Assembly: GCA_949290395.1 (NCBI GenBank) | Contig: CASERQ010000004.1 | Span: 149,598 to 213,597 of the forward strand | Direction of reading: 5' to 3' | DNA: 64,000 nucleotides | Origin: an uncultured bacterium | GTDB taxonomy: Bacteria; Bacillota_I; Bacilli_A; RFN20; CAG-826 | Shown here: piece by piece, positions 34,818 to 42,872 of the stretch | How the letters are laid out: each line of letters opens with the position of its first letter | Numbering within the stretch: position 1 is the first letter of the stretch | Translations under genes and position numbers: made by a program | The notes under the pieces: generated by a model | What the model saw: the letters and a program-made list of their open reading frames with translations, nothing else | Told to the model about the DNA's origin: nothing | Databases searched by the model: none

Positions 34818-35420
34818 ATGAAAAAAATTAAAGTCTATATTCAAAATATGAAGGGATTACTTGTTGTCTTAAGCGGACCTAGCGGAGTTGGAAAAGGTAC
34901 AGTTAGAAAGATACTTATGGAAGATAAGTCTCTTAATCTTGCTTATTCAATTTCTATGACAACAAGAAAGCCAAGAGTTGGGGAAGTTGATGGAGAAGAT
35001 TATTTCTTCGTTAGCCAAGAAGTTTTTGATAAAGCAGTAGAAAATGGCGAGTTACTTGAACATGCTCGTTTTGTAAATAATTCATATGGAACACCAAAAC
35101 CTTATGTTGAAAAATTAAGAAACGAAGGAAAAAACGTTATTCTTGAAATTGAAACACAAGGGGCAAGATCCGTCATGGAAAAATATAAAGATGATAATTT
35201 ATTTATCTCAATTTTTATACTTCCTCCATCCTTTGAAGATCTTGAAAAAAGAATTAGAGGAAGAAGAACTGAAGAAGAATCGGTCGTTCAAGAAAGACTT
35301 AATAAAGCTAAAAGTGAGTTAGAACTTAAAACTTTATACGATTTTAATGTTATAAACTTTACTCCTGAACAAGCCGCAAGTGAAATTAGTAATATAATTA
35401 AATCTAAAATAAATTTATAA
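34818..35420 (+). CDS. gmk: Guanylate kinase
   Basis: 200 residues. P-loop SGPSGVGKGT is followed by the GMP-binding 'SMTTRKPRVGEVDGEDYFFV' region and a lid with 'RIRGRRTEEE'. It converts GMP and ATP to GDP and ADP. Start is uncertain: ATG 34818 gives ten extra basic residues, while ATG 34848 begins the usual 'MKGLLVVLSGPSG'. Neither has a ribosome-binding site. It heads the gmk-priA pair found in most Firmicutes, here without rpoZ between them. Confidence 0.93.
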   Translation: MKKIKVYIQNMKGLLVVLSGPSGVGKGTVRKILMEDKSLNLAYSISMTTRKPRVGEVDGEDYFFVSQEVFDKAVENGELLEHARFVNNSYGTPKPYVEKLRNEGKNVILEIETQGARSVMEKYKDDNLFISIFILPPSFEDLEKRIRGRRTEEESVVQERLNKAKSELELKTLYDFNVINFTPEQAASEISNIIKSKINL

Positions 35421-35427
35421 TTTAAGT

Positions 35428-37626
35428 ATGTATTTACTTAATGTTCTTACTCAAAGAAATCTCTATCTTTTGGATAGAACTTTTTATTATTTATCAAAAG
35501 ATAAAGTTAATGTTGGAGTAAGAGTAAATATTAAATTTAATAATTCTCAAATTGTTGGTTATGTAATTTCATCTGAAGAAATAAATAAAAGCAAAGAAGA
35601 GATTGAAGATGAAGTTGGGATGAACTTAAATTTCATTGATAGTATCATTGATGAAAAACCTATTTTAACAGAGGAATTAATGAAGCTTGCTTTTGAGCTT
35701 AAGAAAAAATATGTCTATCCTTTGATTGGCGTTTTACAAACAATGCTCCCACCTTCTTTAAAGCCAAAACATACCTATATTAATGCTGCAAAAATAAAAA
35801 TAGTGAAGTTTTACGAGGTTTTTTGGGAAAAAGTAAAGGGTTTTGAACTTAATAAAAATGAATTAAAGCTTCTTGAAAAACTTAAAGGAAAGAAAAGAAT
35901 TTTAAAAAGTGAACTTAATCTAACAAAGTCTTTAGAAACTTTAATTCAAAAAGGAATTATTCTTGAAAAAGAAGAAGAGGCTTTTCGCTACAAAATAAAT
36001 ACTGTTTTTAAGGACTACGAAAAAAAGATAATTCTCACTGAGAATCAGAAAGAAGCTTATGAAAAAATAGTAGACTCTAAGCAAAATGTTATTCTTTTAA
36101 AAGGCGTCACAGGAAGTGGAAAAACCGAAATTTATATTGAACTAATTAAAAAGTATATTGCTGAAGGGGAAGGTGCTATAGTTTTAGTTCCAGAAATTGC
36201 TTTAACTCCTTTAATGATTTCTAGACTTTATAATTTTTTTGATGATAAGATTGCGGTTCTTCATTCTTCTTTAACAAGTGCTGAAATATACGATGAATAT
36301 CGTAAAATTTCTGAAGGAAAAGCAAGTGTTGTTATAGGAACAAGAAGTGCAGTTTTTGCTCCTGTTAAAAACTTAGGTTTAATCATAATTGATGAAGAAA
36401 ACGATGAATGTTACAAGCAAGATGATCAAGGTCTTTTATATAATGCAAAAGATGTAGCTTATCTAAGAGCAAAACTTGAAAACGCTAAAGTCATTTTAGG
36501 TTCGGCAACACCTTCTATTGAAGATTACGCAAAAGCTAAAAACGGAAGTTTTGCTCTTGTTGAACTTGATGAAAGATATGGCGGGTTAGAACTACCTTAC
36601 GTTTTCTTAATAGATAACAAAAATTACAAAAACTATTCTTCAAAGAGTAGAGTTTTTTCTCTAGAACTTATTAGGCAGTTAGAAAATGTAATTAACGAAG
36701 GAAAACAAGCAATTTTATTTATAAATAGAAGGGGTTTTGCGAGTTATTTAAGTTGTAGAGAGTGCGGGCACGTTTTTAAGTGTCCTCATTGTGGACTTCC
36801 TTTGCATTACCATAAAGAGAAAAATATTCTTTATTGCCACCATTGTGAATACCAAGTTAAAAAGCCTAAAGTTTGTCCAAAGTGCGGCTCAGCATTTTTA
36901 TCTTATGGACATTTTGGAATTGAAAAAGTTGAAGAAGATTTTAAAAAACTTTTCCCAAATGTTAACTATTTAGTTTTGGATAGTGATAGAACAAGTAAGA
37001 CTTTTCAAATTGAAAAAGTGTTGACTGAATTTAACGAAGGTAAAGCTAGTGTCTTAATTGGAACTCAACTTGTGGCAAAAGGTCATGATTTCAATAATGT
37101 AAAGCTTGTTGGAGTTTTAAACGCGGACACTTTACTGAATTTCCCTAACTATAGAAGTAATGAAATGACCTTCTCTCTTTTAACTCAAGTTATAGGAAGA
37201 GCGGGTAGAAAAAACGAAAAAGGTATCGCGATAATTCAAAGTTCAGAAACTACAAATTCAGCAATCATCCAAGCGTTAAAACAGGATTATGATGCTTTTT
37301 ATCATGACGAAATTTCAAAAAGAAAAGTCATGAGTAATCCACCTTTTAAATCTATACTTTCTATAGAAATTTCAAGCGATAAGCCTTCAAAACTCGATGA
37401 TTTTGTTAAAAGAGTAAAGAATTATTTCATTAGTTTAGACCTAGAAGATGTTGAAGTTTTAGGTCCTTCAATCATCCATTACAACAAGTTTAAATCCTGG
37501 AAAAATATTTTCATTAAATACAAAAAATTATCTGTTGTGATTGAACACATTGAAGCACTTCTTGAAGTTTATAAACTTGAGAAAAATGTTTCTTTGAAAC
37601 TTAATTTCAACCCTTATTCTTTCTAG
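35428..37626 (+). CDS. priA: Primosomal protein N' (replication restart helicase PriA)
   Basis: 732 residues. N-terminal DNA-binding domain; helicase P-loop GVTGSGKTE near residue 228; Walker B reads DEEN, not the usual DEEH, in 'IIDEENDECYKQD'. The zinc-binding insertion has paired Cys clusters ('CRECGHVFKCPHCG', 'CHHCEYQ', 'CPKCGS'), and the second RecA lobe has 'LIGTQLVAKGHDF' and 'VIGRAGR'. It reloads the replisome at stalled forks. Starts seven bases after gmk. An imperfect inverted repeat (37672-37710) follows it. Confidence 0.95.
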   Translation: MYLLNVLTQRNLYLLDRTFYYLSKDKVNVGVRVNIKFNNSQIVGYVISSEEINKSKEEIEDEVGMNLNFIDSIIDEKPILTEELMKLAFELKKKYVYPLIGVLQTMLPPSLKPKHTYINAAKIKIVKFYEVFWEKVKGFELNKNELKLLEKLKGKKRILKSELNLTKSLETLIQKGIILEKEEEAFRYKINTVFKDYEKKIILTENQKEAYEKIVDSKQNVILLKGVTGSGKTEIYIELIKKYIAEGEGAIVLVPEIALTPLMISRLYNFFDDKIAVLHSSLTSAEIYDEYRKISEGKASVVIGTRSAVFAPVKNLGLIIIDEENDECYKQDDQGLLYNAKDVAYLRAKLENAKVILGSATPSIEDYAKAKNGSFALVELDERYGGLELPYVFLIDNKNYKNYSSKSRVFSLELIRQLENVINEGKQAILFINRRGFASYLSCRECGHVFKCPHCGLPLHYHKEKNILYCHHCEYQVKKPKVCPKCGSAFLSYGHFGIEKVEEDFKKLFPNVNYLVLDSDRTSKTFQIEKVLTEFNEGKASVLIGTQLVAKGHDFNNVKLVGVLNADTLLNFPNYRSNEMTFSLLTQVIGRAGRKNEKGIAIIQSSETTNSAIIQALKQDYDAFYHDEISKRKVMSNPPFKSILSIEISSDKPSKLDDFVKRVKNYFISLDLEDVEVLGPSIIHYNKFKSWKNIFIKYKKLSVVIEHIEALLEVYKLEKNVSLKLNFNPYSF

Positions 37627-37759: not shown

Positions 37760-37785
37760 TATTATTGTTAAAAAGTGAGGGCAAA

Positions 37786-38268
37786 ATGATTACAGTTTCA
37801 ATTTTAGGTTTAGATCCATATTTAGTTAGACAAATTTCTAAGGCGATGACTCCAAAATTAAAGGATATCTATGAATGTTCATCGGATGACATTGATTTTT
37901 ATTGTCCTGAATGTTTGTATATTCACGATGGAGTTGAACAAAACACCTGGAATATTTTAGTAAGGGTACACGCTCCTTTAAAAGTTAAAGTTTTACAAAA
38001 TGAAGCTGTTAAAGTCATCCGTGCATTTTTAAAAGACGCATGCATTAATCTTGCTGTTGAATTTTATTATTACAGCCAAGATGATCGTTATGAATTTATA
38101 GATGAAACTCATCCTCGTTTTATGACTGAAAGTAATAGCGTTGAAATCAGTGAAGATGACTACGAGGAAGAAAACGAAGATGAAAAAGGTGAAGGATGGT
38201 ATGACGAACCTTATTTAGGCAATGTTTTTGAAGGGTTCGAAGATAAATTAAATGGAGGGAAGAAATAA
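37786..38268 (+). CDS. Small protein of tautomerase-like (DUF1904-like) type
   Basis: 160 residues from ATG 37786, which follows AGTGAGGG; an in-frame TTG 21 bases upstream coincides with the predicted transcription start and is rejected. The first 110 residues ('GLDPYLVRQISKAMTPKLKDIYECSS', then strand-helix-strand) resemble the DUF1904/MIF-like fold, though there is no N-terminal Pro as in active tautomerases. The C-terminal 45 residues are very acidic (Asp/Glu runs). It begins the operon that contains the RsmB-like protein and rlmN, so a ribosome-related role is possible but unproven. Confidence 0.45.
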   Translation: MITVSILGLDPYLVRQISKAMTPKLKDIYECSSDDIDFYCPECLYIHDGVEQNTWNILVRVHAPLKVKVLQNEAVKVIRAFLKDACINLAVEFYYYSQDDRYEFIDETHPRFMTESNSVEISEDDYEEENEDEKGEGWYDEPYLGNVFEGFEDKLNGGKK

Positions 38269-38271
38269 TTT

Positions 38272-39552
38272 ATGAACACCAAGGTTTACGATTTAAGTTT
38301 TAACGTACTTAAAAGCATTTTAAGAGAACATGCAACTTTCTCAGCTGCGATTAAGAATTCTAGCAAAGGAAGTACAAAAGATGAATTTGCTGGAATGAGT
38401 TCTTTGTCGGGAATATTCTTAAGAAATTATTTTGCAATTAGAGTTATCGCCGAAGGAATTTTTGGTGCAACTCAAGATGAAGCTGTAATTTACATTGGTC
38501 TTGTCTATGTAAATAACATGTTCAAAAAACTCGTTGATGAAAAAGAATCCTTAACTTATCTCGTAAACAAATTAAATCTTTATCAAATTAAGTTTGATGA
38601 CTCAATTAAAGAAGAGTTCAAAAAGAGTGTTGAAGATAAAAATGCTGCAATTAAAAACATTCTTGCAACTAAAAAGATTACCTCCAAATCTCCAAGAACA
38701 TATTTATCTTGCGTAACCAACATCCCAGAATGGATTATTAAAATGCTCCATACTCAATATGGAAGAGACTATGCTCTCGATATCATCCATTCTCTCTTCA
38801 AAATGCCAAAACAATATGCTGTTTTAGATTCGCTTCTTGAAGAAGTAAATGCTAGTGAATTAACTGATAAATTTAGAGAAATTGAACCAACTCTTTATGA
38901 ATACAAAAACAAAACATCTATCAGAAAAGAAAATATTGTTCGCGATGCAAAACTCATGCCAATTCAAAAAGCAGAGTTCGATATGATCAAAAATCTTCCA
39001 AGTGTTGAAGGAGGAGCAGTTACTTTCTTTACTCAAGAAAAAACTTCAATCTATGTTCCATTTATCAACAAATATCTTGCTTTAAATAACAAGGTTTCTG
39101 TTGCTTGCGATGATCCAAAAATTAACTCTGATTTATATGCAAAGATTAAGCCACTTAAAAAAGATGGTTTAGATATTTACGAATCAACAGGAAGTGAACT
39201 TATTGCTCATCTTTCAGAAAAACAAGATATCTTCGTTTATTTACCAAAAAATAGTAACTTTGAACAACTTAGAAGAACTCCAGAATATGGAATTATCTTT
39301 GAAGCTCAAAGTTTAGATTCATTAATTGAAGGTGAACTAAAAGGACTTGAAGAAGTAGGACAATACGTTAGAGATGGCGGAAAATTAGTATACGCTGTTC
39401 CAACATTTAACATTAAAGAAACTATGATTACTGTCCATAAATTCTTAGAAGATAGAAAAGATTTTAAACTTGTTAAAGAAAGCACCTTCTTCCCATTTGA
39501 AAAAGATAACTCAGTATTCTATTACGCAATTTTAGAAAAGAAAGAAAACTAA
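38272..39552 (+). CDS. RsmB-like protein lacking methyltransferase catalytic cysteines
   Basis: 426 residues in the place of rsmB (16S rRNA m5C967 methyltransferase) in the gmk...rlmN-prpC-prkC-rpe order. The N-terminal half is helical, as in the NusB-like domain. The C-terminal half follows the RsmB outline: 'LRRTPEYG' matches the segment after motif IV, and 'VRDGGKLVYAVPTF' matches the strand with motif VI. But motif VI (Y-S-T-C-S) reads Y374-A-V-P377, the DAPCSG motif IV is gone, and the motif I SAM loop is not recognisable. It is probably a non-catalytic rRNA- or ribosome-binding descendant. No ribosome-binding site; it starts three bases after the previous stop. Confidence 0.65.
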   Translation: MNTKVYDLSFNVLKSILREHATFSAAIKNSSKGSTKDEFAGMSSLSGIFLRNYFAIRVIAEGIFGATQDEAVIYIGLVYVNNMFKKLVDEKESLTYLVNKLNLYQIKFDDSIKEEFKKSVEDKNAAIKNILATKKITSKSPRTYLSCVTNIPEWIIKMLHTQYGRDYALDIIHSLFKMPKQYAVLDSLLEEVNASELTDKFREIEPTLYEYKNKTSIRKENIVRDAKLMPIQKAEFDMIKNLPSVEGGAVTFFTQEKTSIYVPFINKYLALNNKVSVACDDPKINSDLYAKIKPLKKDGLDIYESTGSELIAHLSEKQDIFVYLPKNSNFEQLRRTPEYGIIFEAQSLDSLIEGELKGLEEVGQYVRDGGKLVYAVPTFNIKETMITVHKFLEDRKDFKLVKESTFFPFEKDNSVFYYAILEKKEN

Positions 39553-39555
39553 TTA

Positions 39556-40599
39556 ATGTACAATTTTTACGATTATAGTCTTCCAAAACTCGAAGAGTTG
39601 ATTGTTTCGTTTAACGAAAAAAAGTATCGTGCAACTCAACTTTTTAAATGGGTTTACAAAAGAAAGGTTTTTGATTTTGATGCAATGAGCGATGTCTCAA
39701 AAACTTTTAGAGAGTTTTTAAAAGAAAACTTTGTTTTTATTAAACCTAAAATTTATAAAAAACAAGTTAGTAAAGATGGTACTATAAAACTTCTTTTAGA
39801 ACTTGAAGATGGCGCTAAAGTTGAAACGGTTTTAATGCGTTATAACTATGGAAATGTAGCTTGCGTTTCTAGTGAAGTTGGCTGCAATATGGGCTGCGCA
39901 TTCTGCGCAAGTGGCATTTTAAAAAAGCAAAGAGAACTTAAAGTAAGTGAAATTTTAGGTCAAGTTTTAGTGCTTAATGACCTTCTTTTTGAAGAAGGAA
40001 ATGACGAAAGAATAACTCACGTTGTTGTAATGGGAACCGGCGAGCCATTTGACAATTATGATAACGTCATGGACTTTATTAGAATTTTAAATAATCCTCA
40101 TGGACTTGAAATTGGTGCAAGACATATAACGGTTTCAACTTGTGGCATTGTTCCTAAAATTTATGATTATGCTAACGAAGGGCTTCAAATTAATTTAGCT
40201 ATCTCTTTACATGCACCAAATGATGAAATTAGAAATAAAATAATGGCCATTAGCAGGGTTTATCCTCTTGATGAACTTATGAAAGCCGTTAAATATTATG
40301 AAAAAACCGCTGGTAGAAGAGTAACTTTTGAATATATTCTTTTAAAAGGTATTAATGATTCTAAAGAAAACGCTAAAGAACTAGCTAAATTGATTAAAGG
40401 CACATTGGCCTACGTCAACTTAATACCTTATAATGAAGTTAGTGAAATGAAATATCGTCGAAGTGATGAAAAAACAGTTCATGAATATTTAGATACTCTT
40501 ATGAAACTTGGGGTTACAGCAACTATTAGAAAAGAATTTGGTAGTGACATTGATGCTGCTTGTGGTCAATTAAGAGCGAAAGAAGAAAGACGTGATTAG
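39556..40599 (+). CDS. rlmN: Dual-specificity 23S rRNA/tRNA adenine-C2 methyltransferase
   Basis: 347 residues, radical SAM. The iron-sulfur cluster motif is CNMGCAFC (CxxxCxxC, near residue 113). 'MGTGEPFDNYDNV' is the SAM-contact loop. The two methylation cysteines fit Cys in 'TVSTCGIVP' or the C-terminal 'DIDAACGQL' as in the family. It methylates A2503 of 23S rRNA and A37 of some tRNAs. TAA-TTA-ATG junction with the preceding gene, and eight bases overlapping the phosphatase gene. Confidence 0.95.
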   Translation: MYNFYDYSLPKLEELIVSFNEKKYRATQLFKWVYKRKVFDFDAMSDVSKTFREFLKENFVFIKPKIYKKQVSKDGTIKLLLELEDGAKVETVLMRYNYGNVACVSSEVGCNMGCAFCASGILKKQRELKVSEILGQVLVLNDLLFEEGNDERITHVVVMGTGEPFDNYDNVMDFIRILNNPHGLEIGARHITVSTCGIVPKIYDYANEGLQINLAISLHAPNDEIRNKIMAISRVYPLDELMKAVKYYEKTAGRRVTFEYILLKGINDSKENAKELAKLIKGTLAYVNLIPYNEVSEMKYRRSDEKTVHEYLDTLMKLGVTATIRKEFGSDIDAACGQLRAKEERRD

Positions 40600-41335
40600 G
40601 GGAAATTATTGTTATAGAACTGATATAGGTAAAGTCAGGAGTACAAATGAAGACGAGACTAGAATTGTAATAAACTCTAGTGGAAACGTTCTTTTAATTG
40701 TGGCCGATGGAATGGGAGGACACAATAAAGGAGACTACGCTTCTTTTGAAACTGTAAGAATAATTAGTGAAGCTTTTAAAGATAAAAAAGGTTTTTTAAC
40801 TGCTCATTCAGCAGCAAACTGGTTAAAAAATATCTCAAAATTAGCAAATTCCACAATTTATAATTTACAGGATCAAGACGTCATTTATAAAGGCATGGGA
40901 ACAACCCTTTCTATGGCTCTCATTTTTAAGAACAAATTAATCACTTTAAATTGTGGTGATTCGAGAATCTACTCAAAAAAGAGTCATAAGTTAGAGCAAT
41001 TAAGTGAAGATCAAACTTACGTCAATTTCCTTGTTAAATCAGGCCAAATATCACAAGAAGAAGCCCTTATTCATCCTGAAAGACATGTTTTGACAAATGC
41101 TGTTGGAATTTTCCCTTCTTTAAGTGCTGATATAAAAATTATTGATTACAATAACGAAACGTTACTTTTATGCACTGATGGACTTTATAACAACATCCGT
41201 GATAAAGATATTTTAAATATTTTAGAAATGAATATTGCAACAAGTGAAAAAGTTCAATCGTTAATTTCACTTGCTAATTTTAATGGTGGAACTGATAACA
41301 TAAGCGTAGCTCTTTGGGAGACTTTAGATGATTAA
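40592..41335 (+). CDS. PP2C-type Ser/Thr protein phosphatase (PrpC/Stp-like)
   Basis: 247 residues from GTG 40592, overlapping the rlmN end. Metal-binding Asp residues occur in 'STNEDE' (motif 1), 'VADGMGGHNKGD' (motif 2), 'LCTDGL' (motif 8) and 'GGTDNISVAL' (motif 11). Together with the next gene it forms the usual phosphatase-kinase pair acting on Ser/Thr-phosphorylated proteins in the cytosol, overlapping it by eight bases. Confidence 0.92.
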   Translation: MIRGNYCYRTDIGKVRSTNEDETRIVINSSGNVLLIVADGMGGHNKGDYASFETVRIISEAFKDKKGFLTAHSAANWLKNISKLANSTIYNLQDQDVIYKGMGTTLSMALIFKNKLITLNCGDSRIYSKKSHKLEQLSEDQTYVNFLVKSGQISQEEALIHPERHVLTNAVGIFPSLSADIKIIDYNNETLLLCTDGLYNNIRDKDILNILEMNIATSEKVQSLISLANFNGGTDNISVALWETLDD

Positions 41336-42212
41336 AGTTAATGAGGTCATCGGACAAAGATATAAGATAATTAGTGAACTTGGTGAAGGTGGGATGGCTA
41401 ATGTTTTTGAAGCGCGTGATGTTATCTTTAAAAGAGAAGTTGCTTTAAAAATTATTAAACTTGATAATGCTAAAAAAATTGATAACTTAATTCGTTTTCA
41501 AAACGAAGCCCGCTTTTCAGCAGCTTTTAGCCATAAAAACATTGTTAAAATTTATGATTATGGCGAATATAACAATCTTCCTTATATTGTTAACGAATTT
41601 GTTAAAGGCCAAACTTTAAGAGATATTCTTGATTATAAAAGATGTTTTTCTTTAAATGAAAGTTGCTCAATTATGCTTCAACTTTGCGATGCTGTTAGTG
41701 AAGTACATTCTAAAAAAATTATTCATCGTGATATTAAAACTCATAACATTTATTACACAAATGATGGCGAAATTAAGCTTGGTGATTTTGGAATTTCGAT
41801 CTTGCTTAATAGTGATTTAAACGTTAACGAAAATAAACGTATTATGGGAACTGCTCAATATCTTGCTCCTGAACTTGTTTATGGAGATAAACCAAGTTTT
41901 CAAAGCGATATTTATGCAATGGGAATCACCTTTTTTGAACTTTTAACAGGACGCGTTCCTTTTGATGGAAAAAATCCTCATGATATTGCAATTATGCAAG
42001 TTGAAAAAGAAATCCCATCTCCTTTAAAAATTAATCCTAACCTTCCTAAAGAAGTGGAATATATAATTTTCAAAGCTACTAAAAAAGATTTAAATGAAAG
42101 ATATAAAAGTTGTGAAGAAATGAAAAAAGACATTTATTCAATTTATAAAAATAAAAAACTTGTAAGAAAAAATACTGGATTTTTTTCACGAATTTTTGGG
42201 TTCACAAAGTAA
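41328..42212 (+). CDS. Soluble Hanks-type Ser/Thr kinase, no PASTA domains
   Basis: 294 residues holding a complete kinase domain: glycine loop GEGGMANVF, Lys in 'VALKII', catalytic loop 'IIHRDIKTHNI', DFG in 'LGDFGIS', activation segment 'GTAQYLAPE', 'SDIYAMGITFFELL'. The protein stops about 20 residues after the kinase C-lobe with a basic tail. PrkC/PknB in related operons continue with a membrane span and external PASTA repeats that sense muropeptides; both are absent here. It is therefore cytosolic, and sensing must differ. Confidence 0.9.
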   Translation: MIKVNEVIGQRYKIISELGEGGMANVFEARDVIFKREVALKIIKLDNAKKIDNLIRFQNEARFSAAFSHKNIVKIYDYGEYNNLPYIVNEFVKGQTLRDILDYKRCFSLNESCSIMLQLCDAVSEVHSKKIIHRDIKTHNIYYTNDGEIKLGDFGISILLNSDLNVNENKRIMGTAQYLAPELVYGDKPSFQSDIYAMGITFFELLTGRVPFDGKNPHDIAIMQVEKEIPSPLKINPNLPKEVEYIIFKATKKDLNERYKSCEEMKKDIYSIYKNKKLVRKNTGFFSRIFGFTK

Positions 42213-42215
42213 ATT

Positions 42216-42872
42216 ATGAAACACGTTGATATTTCAATTTCAATTTTAAATGCTAATTTTTTATATCTAAATGAAGAGATTTTAAAGGCAGAGAATCTTG
42301 GAATAAGATATCTTCATTTTGATGTAATGGACGGACATTTTGTTCCAAACATTTCTTTTGGAGCACCAGTTTTAGAATCTATTAAAGGAAAATTTAATCT
42401 TATAAATGATGTTCATTTGATGATTAGTGATCCTAAAAAATATGTTGATGATTTTATTAAAGCTGGCGCCAATATTATCACGTTTCACTATGAAGCAATG
42501 AAAAATGAAGAAGATATCTTTTCTTTAATTAAATATATAAAAGAAAAAGGAGTTAAGGCAGGAATTTCAATAAAACCAAAAACTAATGTTAAAGTTTTAC
42601 TACCTTTTTTAGATCTTCTTGATTTAATTCTTGTAATGTCAGTTGAACCTGGCTTTGGCGGACAAAGTTTTATGGATTCATCTTTAGATAAGATTGAATT
42701 TTTATCTAATTATAAAAAAGAAAATGGTTTAGAATATTTAATAGAAGTAGATGGAGGGATAAACAATTTAACCTTTAAAAAGTGTGCTCTTAAAGGTGTT
42801 GATATTTGTGTTATTGGGAGCTACTTGTATAAAAGCGAAAACATGAAAGAAAGTTTTGAGGCGTTAAGTTAA
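42216..42872 (+). CDS. rpe: Ribulose-phosphate 3-epimerase
   Basis: 218 residues, TIM barrel. Signature segments 'HFDVMDGHFVPNISFG' and 'VHLMI', 'MSVEPGFGGQSF' and 'EVDGGIN' carry the metal and phosphate ligands. It interconverts ribulose-5-phosphate and xylulose-5-phosphate in the pentose phosphate pathway. In many Firmicutes rsgA lies between the kinase and rpe; here it is missing. TAA-ATT-ATG junction with the kinase. Confidence 0.95.
   Translation: MKHVDISISILNANFLYLNEEILKAENLGIRYLHFDVMDGHFVPNISFGAPVLESIKGKFNLINDVHLMISDPKKYVDDFIKAGANIITFHYEAMKNEEDIFSLIKYIKEKGVKAGISIKPKTNVKVLLPFLDLLDLILVMSVEPGFGGQSFMDSSLDKIEFLSNYKKENGLEYLIEVDGGINNLTFKKCALKGVDICVIGSYLYKSENMKESFEALS

Follow-up and report, generated by a model that had tools for sequence, protein, structure and literature searches.

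The window analysed here, a stretch of 64,000 nucleotides from an uncultured bacterium, harbors the gene order gmk-priA-DUF1904-X-rlmN-PP2C-pkn-rpe, in which X encodes a protein of 426 amino acids with an ATG start that we call pseudo-RsmB (Table 1). The names of the gmk-like gene and of the PP2C-like phosphatase and Ser/Thr kinase genes are our presumption from their sequences. Three bases separate X from the end of the DUF1904-like gene and another three from the start of rlmN at 39556; the latter junction was correctly given in a preliminary description of this DNA, which had placed an RsmB-like protein in the rsmB slot before rlmN. The gene order is preserved in nearly all loci of relatives, with tight junctions, most loci having between -14 and +15 bases, and the slot proteins share the orthologous place before rlmN. 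In relatives an rsgA gene is found between the kinase gene and rpe (L070 560-1420, TIGR00157 E 1.9e-61; L279); it is absent at 42212-42216 of the window, and a tblastn search with RsgA gave no match within these 64,000 nucleotides.

Table 1. Features of the pseudo-RsmB locus in the window, and loci of inactivated RsmB homologues in family f23 (numbered within each locus).
Feature	Position	Strand	Description
gmk-like gene	34818..35420	+	Upstream anchor; equivalent place in relatives
priA	35428..37626	+	Upstream anchor of the conserved order
DUF1904-like (tautomerase-fold) gene	37765..38268	+	Directly upstream of pseudo-RsmB; best ATG 37786
pseudo-RsmB	38272..39552	+	RsmB homologue over its full length; catalytic and SAM-binding motifs absent
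N-terminal helical NusB-like domain	38272..38706	+	Residues ~1-145, boundary estimated; predicted helices, 1sqf alignment
Degenerate motif I (SAM loop)	39022..39051	+	Residues 251-260, VTFFTQEKTSIY; aligned to VLDMCAAPGTK of intact relatives
Degenerate motif IV	39226..39264	+	Residues 319-331, DIFVYLPKNSNFE replacing DxxLLDAPCSGxG
Degenerate motif VI	39376..39423	+	Residues 369-384, GGKLVYAVPTFNIKET replacing GGxxVYSTCTLNKKEN
rlmN	39556..40599	+	Radical SAM and RlmN_N domains; 3 bases downstream of pseudo-RsmB
PP2C-like phosphatase and Ser/Thr kinase genes	40592..42212	+	Downstream anchors in relatives
f23 dead RsmB locus L239	336-1415	+	Adjoins rlmN
f23 dead RsmB locus L240	1495-2574	-	Adjoins rlmN
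f23 dead RsmB locus L241	1492-2586	-	Adjoins rlmN

The relationship of the protein to RsmB goes far beyond chance, and its profile scores lie well under the family cut-offs. The NCBIfam model NF011494 (RsmB) matches with E 5.7e-15 and 55 bits (cut-off 319), TIGR00563 reaches 26.7 bits (curated cut-off 269), and Pfam PF01189 scores 21.3, which is under its gathering score of 27, so that routine annotation could miss the gene. Comparison of a profile of the dead forms (slot homologues with a lost active site, see below) with one of intact RsmB proteins by hhalign gave E 3.4e-52 over 420 columns, and a PDB profile search matched 2yxl (E 1.4e-23) and 1sqf (E 6.1e-20). The AlphaFold2 model (pLDDT 93.7, pTM 0.89) has 1sqf/1sqg, E. 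coli Fmu (RsmB), as its top matches in Foldseek and VIA-align, with Z 32.4 and an rmsd of 4.2 over 401 residues of 1sqf (model residues 3-424), covering both the NusB-like N-terminal domain and the RsmB/F methyltransferase core to which it is joined. An unrelated fold is ruled out by these comparisons, and by descent, fold and operon place the window gene is the orthologue of rsmB. RsmF/YebU and other Nop2/NSUN m5C methyltransferases share the Rossmann and RRM-like core fold but lack the NusB-like domain; the C-terminal extension of RsmF-type proteins is likewise missing from the window protein, which ends with the methyltransferase core.

Compared with RsmB (Fmu/Sun; TIGR00563, NF011494; 1sqf/1sqg), the 16S rRNA m5C967 enzyme, the window protein is alike in its slot before rlmN, both domains, fold and full-length alignment, but has neither the SAM loop nor the cysteines of motifs IV and VI. 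Alignment to intact relatives places VTFFTQEKTSI opposite motif I, VYLPKNSN opposite LLDAPCSG and VYAVPT opposite VYSTCT. Thus the observations of the preliminary description that the SAM loop is gone, that DAPCSG is missing (the sequence reads LPKNSN) and that YSTCS of motif VI has become YAVPT all agree with the alignment, and the landmarks LRRxPE and GG.LVY noted there are present as LRRTPEY and GGKLVY. The motif IV cysteine is replaced by Asn327, with Ser328 of the old CSG retained, and the motif VI nucleophile by Pro377, with T378, N380, K382 and E383 of the old TxNxKE retained. Residues common to the dead form and intact RsmB include P152, G370, Y374, T378, E383, F391 and Y417. Judged by these motifs, pseudo-RsmB would have no capacity to methylate C967, the helix 31 position that the consulted portions of two reports name as the RsmB target (PMC4014445, PMC6259748).

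No second active rsmB, for which the preliminary description had proposed a search, was found in the 96%-complete genome. Its only active-type homologue (G000:C6, locus L035) has DAPCSG and YSTCS, is RsmF-like without a NusB domain, and is fitted best by RsmF models. In genus g6, stand-alone m5C methyltransferases of 296/297 amino acids with DAPCSG and YSTCS were observed (L085 3295-4185, minus strand; L148 2533-3426, minus strand), and the single g6 operon that was read (G030, L279) no longer contains the slot protein.

The loss of the active site extends across a clade. The motif VI nucleophile cysteine is present in none of 117 slot homologues from families f1, f3 and f5 (82, 12 and 23 proteins; 40 genera in our own tally) and in all 31 intact proteins from sister families and another order. 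At motif IV a cysteine occupies the column in 10 of the 117, none of which has the motif VI cysteine, and in families f2, f6, f7 and f8 of the same order RsmB carries all motifs (9/9). By our tally a match to the dead profile at E <= 2e-30 exists in 239 of the 265 f1, f3 and f5 genomes, a count that includes many incomplete metagenome-assembled genomes and in which motifs were read only for the 117. The best explanation is that the pseudoenzyme state dates to the common ancestor of f1, f3 and f5 and was then kept. Secondary loss of the slot protein is seen in G030 and G033, the slot is empty in the f4 genome G049 and occupied by thyX in G037; the gene is therefore not essential to the group.

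Among 18 close pairs of pseudo-RsmB proteins dN/dS ranged from 0.027 to 0.485, with 17 pairs below 0.27, and RlmN gave a lower value in 17 of the same 18 pairs, which indicates that pseudo-RsmB is constrained, but less so than RlmN. The 117 homologues and this purifying selection rule out a sequencing artefact or an isolated pseudogene. Residue retention was examined in 67 columns conserved to at least 90% in the 31 intact proteins; the 17 columns that we picked by hand as active-site columns had a mean retention of 0.11 in the dead forms, versus 0.30 for the other 50 (Mann-Whitney p 0.005). The NusB-like domain has likewise lost the majority of its conserved residues, several of its columns being kept as badly as the active site, and this argues against RNA binding having simply been retained. 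For the window protein a pI of about 7.0 is predicted, the means being 8.5 for intact relatives of the order and 7.2 for intact f23 proteins. Catalytic residues are thus lost clade-wide in a protein under purifying selection and, together with fold and synteny, this marks pseudo-RsmB as an RsmB descendant that has become fixed as a pseudoenzyme and is maintained by selection. With no replacement in the genome, the same evidence upholds that part of the preliminary description which saw a catalytically dead RsmB descendant in the rsmB position. Its preservation across the clade with the active site lost suggests a job other than methylation.

Dead homologues of RsmB also occur in f23, a family of the same class, in which 22 full-length RsmB proteins are intact while G315, G523 (genus g86) and G363 (genus g121) carry dead homologues, also full-length at 359-364 amino acids, directly before rlmN. 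In these, motif I is broken, the motif IV cysteine is replaced by serine and that of motif VI by asparagine, with APSSN-like and TNT sequences in place of PCSG and TCT. In the tree they are nested within f23 with SH-aLRT values of 99-100, apart from f1, f3 and f5; forcing all dead forms together gave p 0.0454 in the AU test, a borderline rejection obtained with a quick tree and a post hoc group. On these sequences the inactivation in f23 is apparently a second origin, independent of that in f1, f3 and f5. Family f17, considered as a further dead lineage because of weak RsmB matches (E 1e-16 to 1e-22), was not supported as such; the dead profile matches 4 of 32 f17 genomes tested, with scores (E 1e-11 to 1e-14) of the level seen for RsmF.

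The rRNA substrate differs as well. Among the matches listed with a readable helix 31, the 966-970 loop reads GCAAC in all 35 genomes with intact RsmB, whereas among those listed with dead RsmB it is GCUAC in 39 of 55, GCAAC in 13, GAUAC in two and GAUCC in one (Fisher p 2e-14, phylogeny ignored). For genomes without RsmB, 41 of the 42 rows among the matches listed read GAUAC, GGUAC or GCUAC (41 genomes, one read twice). Kept outside these counts are the one f4 genome read, G049, which has no RsmB and reads GCAAC, and two g6 genomes that lost the slot protein and read GCUAC. In three of the 55 dead-RsmB genomes (G017, G132 and G170) C967 is replaced by A, and G971 is A also. A search for the 16S rRNA gene of the window's own genome found none. 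The loop looks freed from constraint in most, not all, dead-RsmB genomes, similar to lineages that lack RsmB.

The DUF1904-like protein matches PF08921 weakly (E 0.0015), and its top Foldseek match is 4m1a, a DUF1904 structure. Its profile matches 43 of 45 f1, f3 and f5 genomes, 3 of 4 f4 genomes weakly and none of 10 genomes of f2, f6, f7 and f8, and the gene mostly lies directly upstream of the slot gene. Many f1 members have an acidic linker and a C-terminal tail resembling YLGNxFExFE, and other members have Cys/His-rich tails that look metal-binding. From this distribution DUF1904 may be a partner of pseudo-RsmB, or the two may merely have a common clade history. What goes beyond the preliminary description is that the pseudoenzyme state has become fixed in some 40 genera, with an apparent second origin elsewhere and an association with the DUF1904 gene.

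As an explanation of function we favor, at a confidence just short of even, that an rsmB orthologue became a pseudoenzyme under selection with a methylation-independent role in early 30S assembly. In this scheme pseudo-RsmB, made together with the 23S rRNA enzyme RlmN, would still engage early 30S precursors near helix 31 and act as a non-catalytic assembly factor, either chaperone or checkpoint, while the loop, with the methyl mark lost, would be able to drift (A968U, sometimes C967A). The consulted portion of a study of E. coli (PMC7056703) reports that 17S precursor accumulates in a delta-rsmB strain and that RsmB acts on early 30S particles, before S19 joins; its authors suggest that RsmB accelerates assembly or prevents misassembly. 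Assembly roles independent of catalysis are described, in the parts consulted, for RlmB and RlmKL (PMC11194073) and for METTL15 (PMC11197891). From the early-30S role of the E. coli protein and these precedents we infer a non-catalytic assembly role at that same confidence. The other part of the preliminary description, a retained ribosome-assembly or rRNA-binding role, is plausible, resting on the 17S effect of the early-30S factor in E. coli and the drift of the helix 31 loop. Against an assembly role stand the low retention of consensus columns outside the active site too, with the residue losses in the NusB-like domain, the predicted pI below the mean of intact relatives of the order (if close to that of intact f23 proteins), the deletion of the gene in some genera and its faster evolution than that of RlmN, and against the part concerning helix 31 the GCAAC loops kept in 13 of 55 dead-form genomes and in the RsmB-less G049. 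A broader version, in which RsmB turned at least twice into a dedicated non-catalytic 30S assembly factor that selection maintains instead of the enzyme, the loop co-evolved (GCAAC to GCUAC or GAUAC) and DUF1904 became a partner in the larger clade, is possible but doubtful.

The same losses in the NusB-like domain would fit a fold that had given up ribosome binding and was re-used to bind another protein, the likeliest candidate being the DUF1904-like one. The gene of the latter is clade-restricted and mostly adjacent, and the protein has a tautomerase-like core, an acidic linker and, in many f1 members, a conserved C-terminal motif that could dock a partner. Such re-use is rather unlikely, as DUF1904 persists without the slot protein (G030, G033 and weakly f4), is unlinked in G038 and G058, and could owe its association to common phylogeny alone, and as RlmN follows RsmB in the second dead lineage, f23. 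Less probable still is an inhibitor or placeholder at helix 31 or on the pre-30S particle, which would keep RsmD, RsmF or IF3 from the decoding region by competition. Helix 31 touches both the P-site tRNA and initiation factors, and IF3 complements mutants of 966/967 (PMC6259748), but the binding itself, like such competition, is putative. The tight junctions, the absence of the gene from some genera and its fast evolution might also reflect slow decay of a relic with little protein function, held by its frame between translationally coupled genes (the rlmN start overlap). Selection already disfavors this, and the full length of the gene, dN/dS values far under 1 in all 18 pairs, the confident two-domain fold, specific residues conserved to above 90% across three families and the profile's presence in 239 of 265 genomes make it very unlikely. 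A methyltransferase or other enzyme with different chemistry or cofactor has no more in its favor: although the Rossmann core persists in the model and S328, T378 and E383 beside the old site are conserved, there is no conserved acidic-Gly loop of motif I, no acidic residue of motif II and no nucleophile-column cysteine in any of the 117, and a free assortment of residues (Pro, Asn, Tyr, Thr, Ser, Phe and others) fills the old catalytic positions, so that altered catalysis is highly improbable.

It has long been asked whether evolution conserves rRNA methyltransferases because of the mark they make or because of the protein itself. KsgA is an rRNA modification enzyme with an activity-independent assembly role, and in inactive methyltransferase subunits of the METTL14 or Trm6 type the fold is kept as a scaffold paired with an active paralogue. 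Pseudo-RsmB resembles the latter in its possible use of the fold as a scaffold, but has no active RsmB here to pair with. RlmB, RlmKL and METTL15 are precedents for a methyltransferase protein that matters without methyl transfer; those are active enzymes, whereas the clade studied here has given up the active site permanently. In Mollicutes, related reduced Bacilli, RsmB was lost and m5C967 methylation is dispensable, as stated in the consulted part of PMC4014445; the gene is absent there but kept as a dead protein here. No description of an RsmB pseudoenzyme or catalytically inactive RsmB was found among the matches listed in the open-licence literature searched. The dead forms represent a separation of function by nature, seemingly made twice, in which the RsmB protein was kept, its chemistry removed and the substrate loop changed, and the assembly-factor hypothesis for RsmB becomes directly testable. 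Under the broader version given above, RsmB would owe its lasting value to its part in assembly, and the m5C967 mark would come second. Orthology of rsmB by synteny should not be equated with the presence of m5C967.

Other occupants of the slot were observed in f4. The open reading frames there were considered as hidden pseudo-RsmB genes, but that of G037, between DUF1904 and rlmN (L280 1435-2283, minus strand), is ThyX (PF02511, E 9.8e-64). In G054 the slot holds an open reading frame of 477 amino acids without a recognised family (L282 707-2140, minus strand), which showed no similarity in a single-sequence hhalign comparison, a weak test. In genome G180 the dead RsmB copy in the slot is accompanied by a second one at another place (L118, L126).
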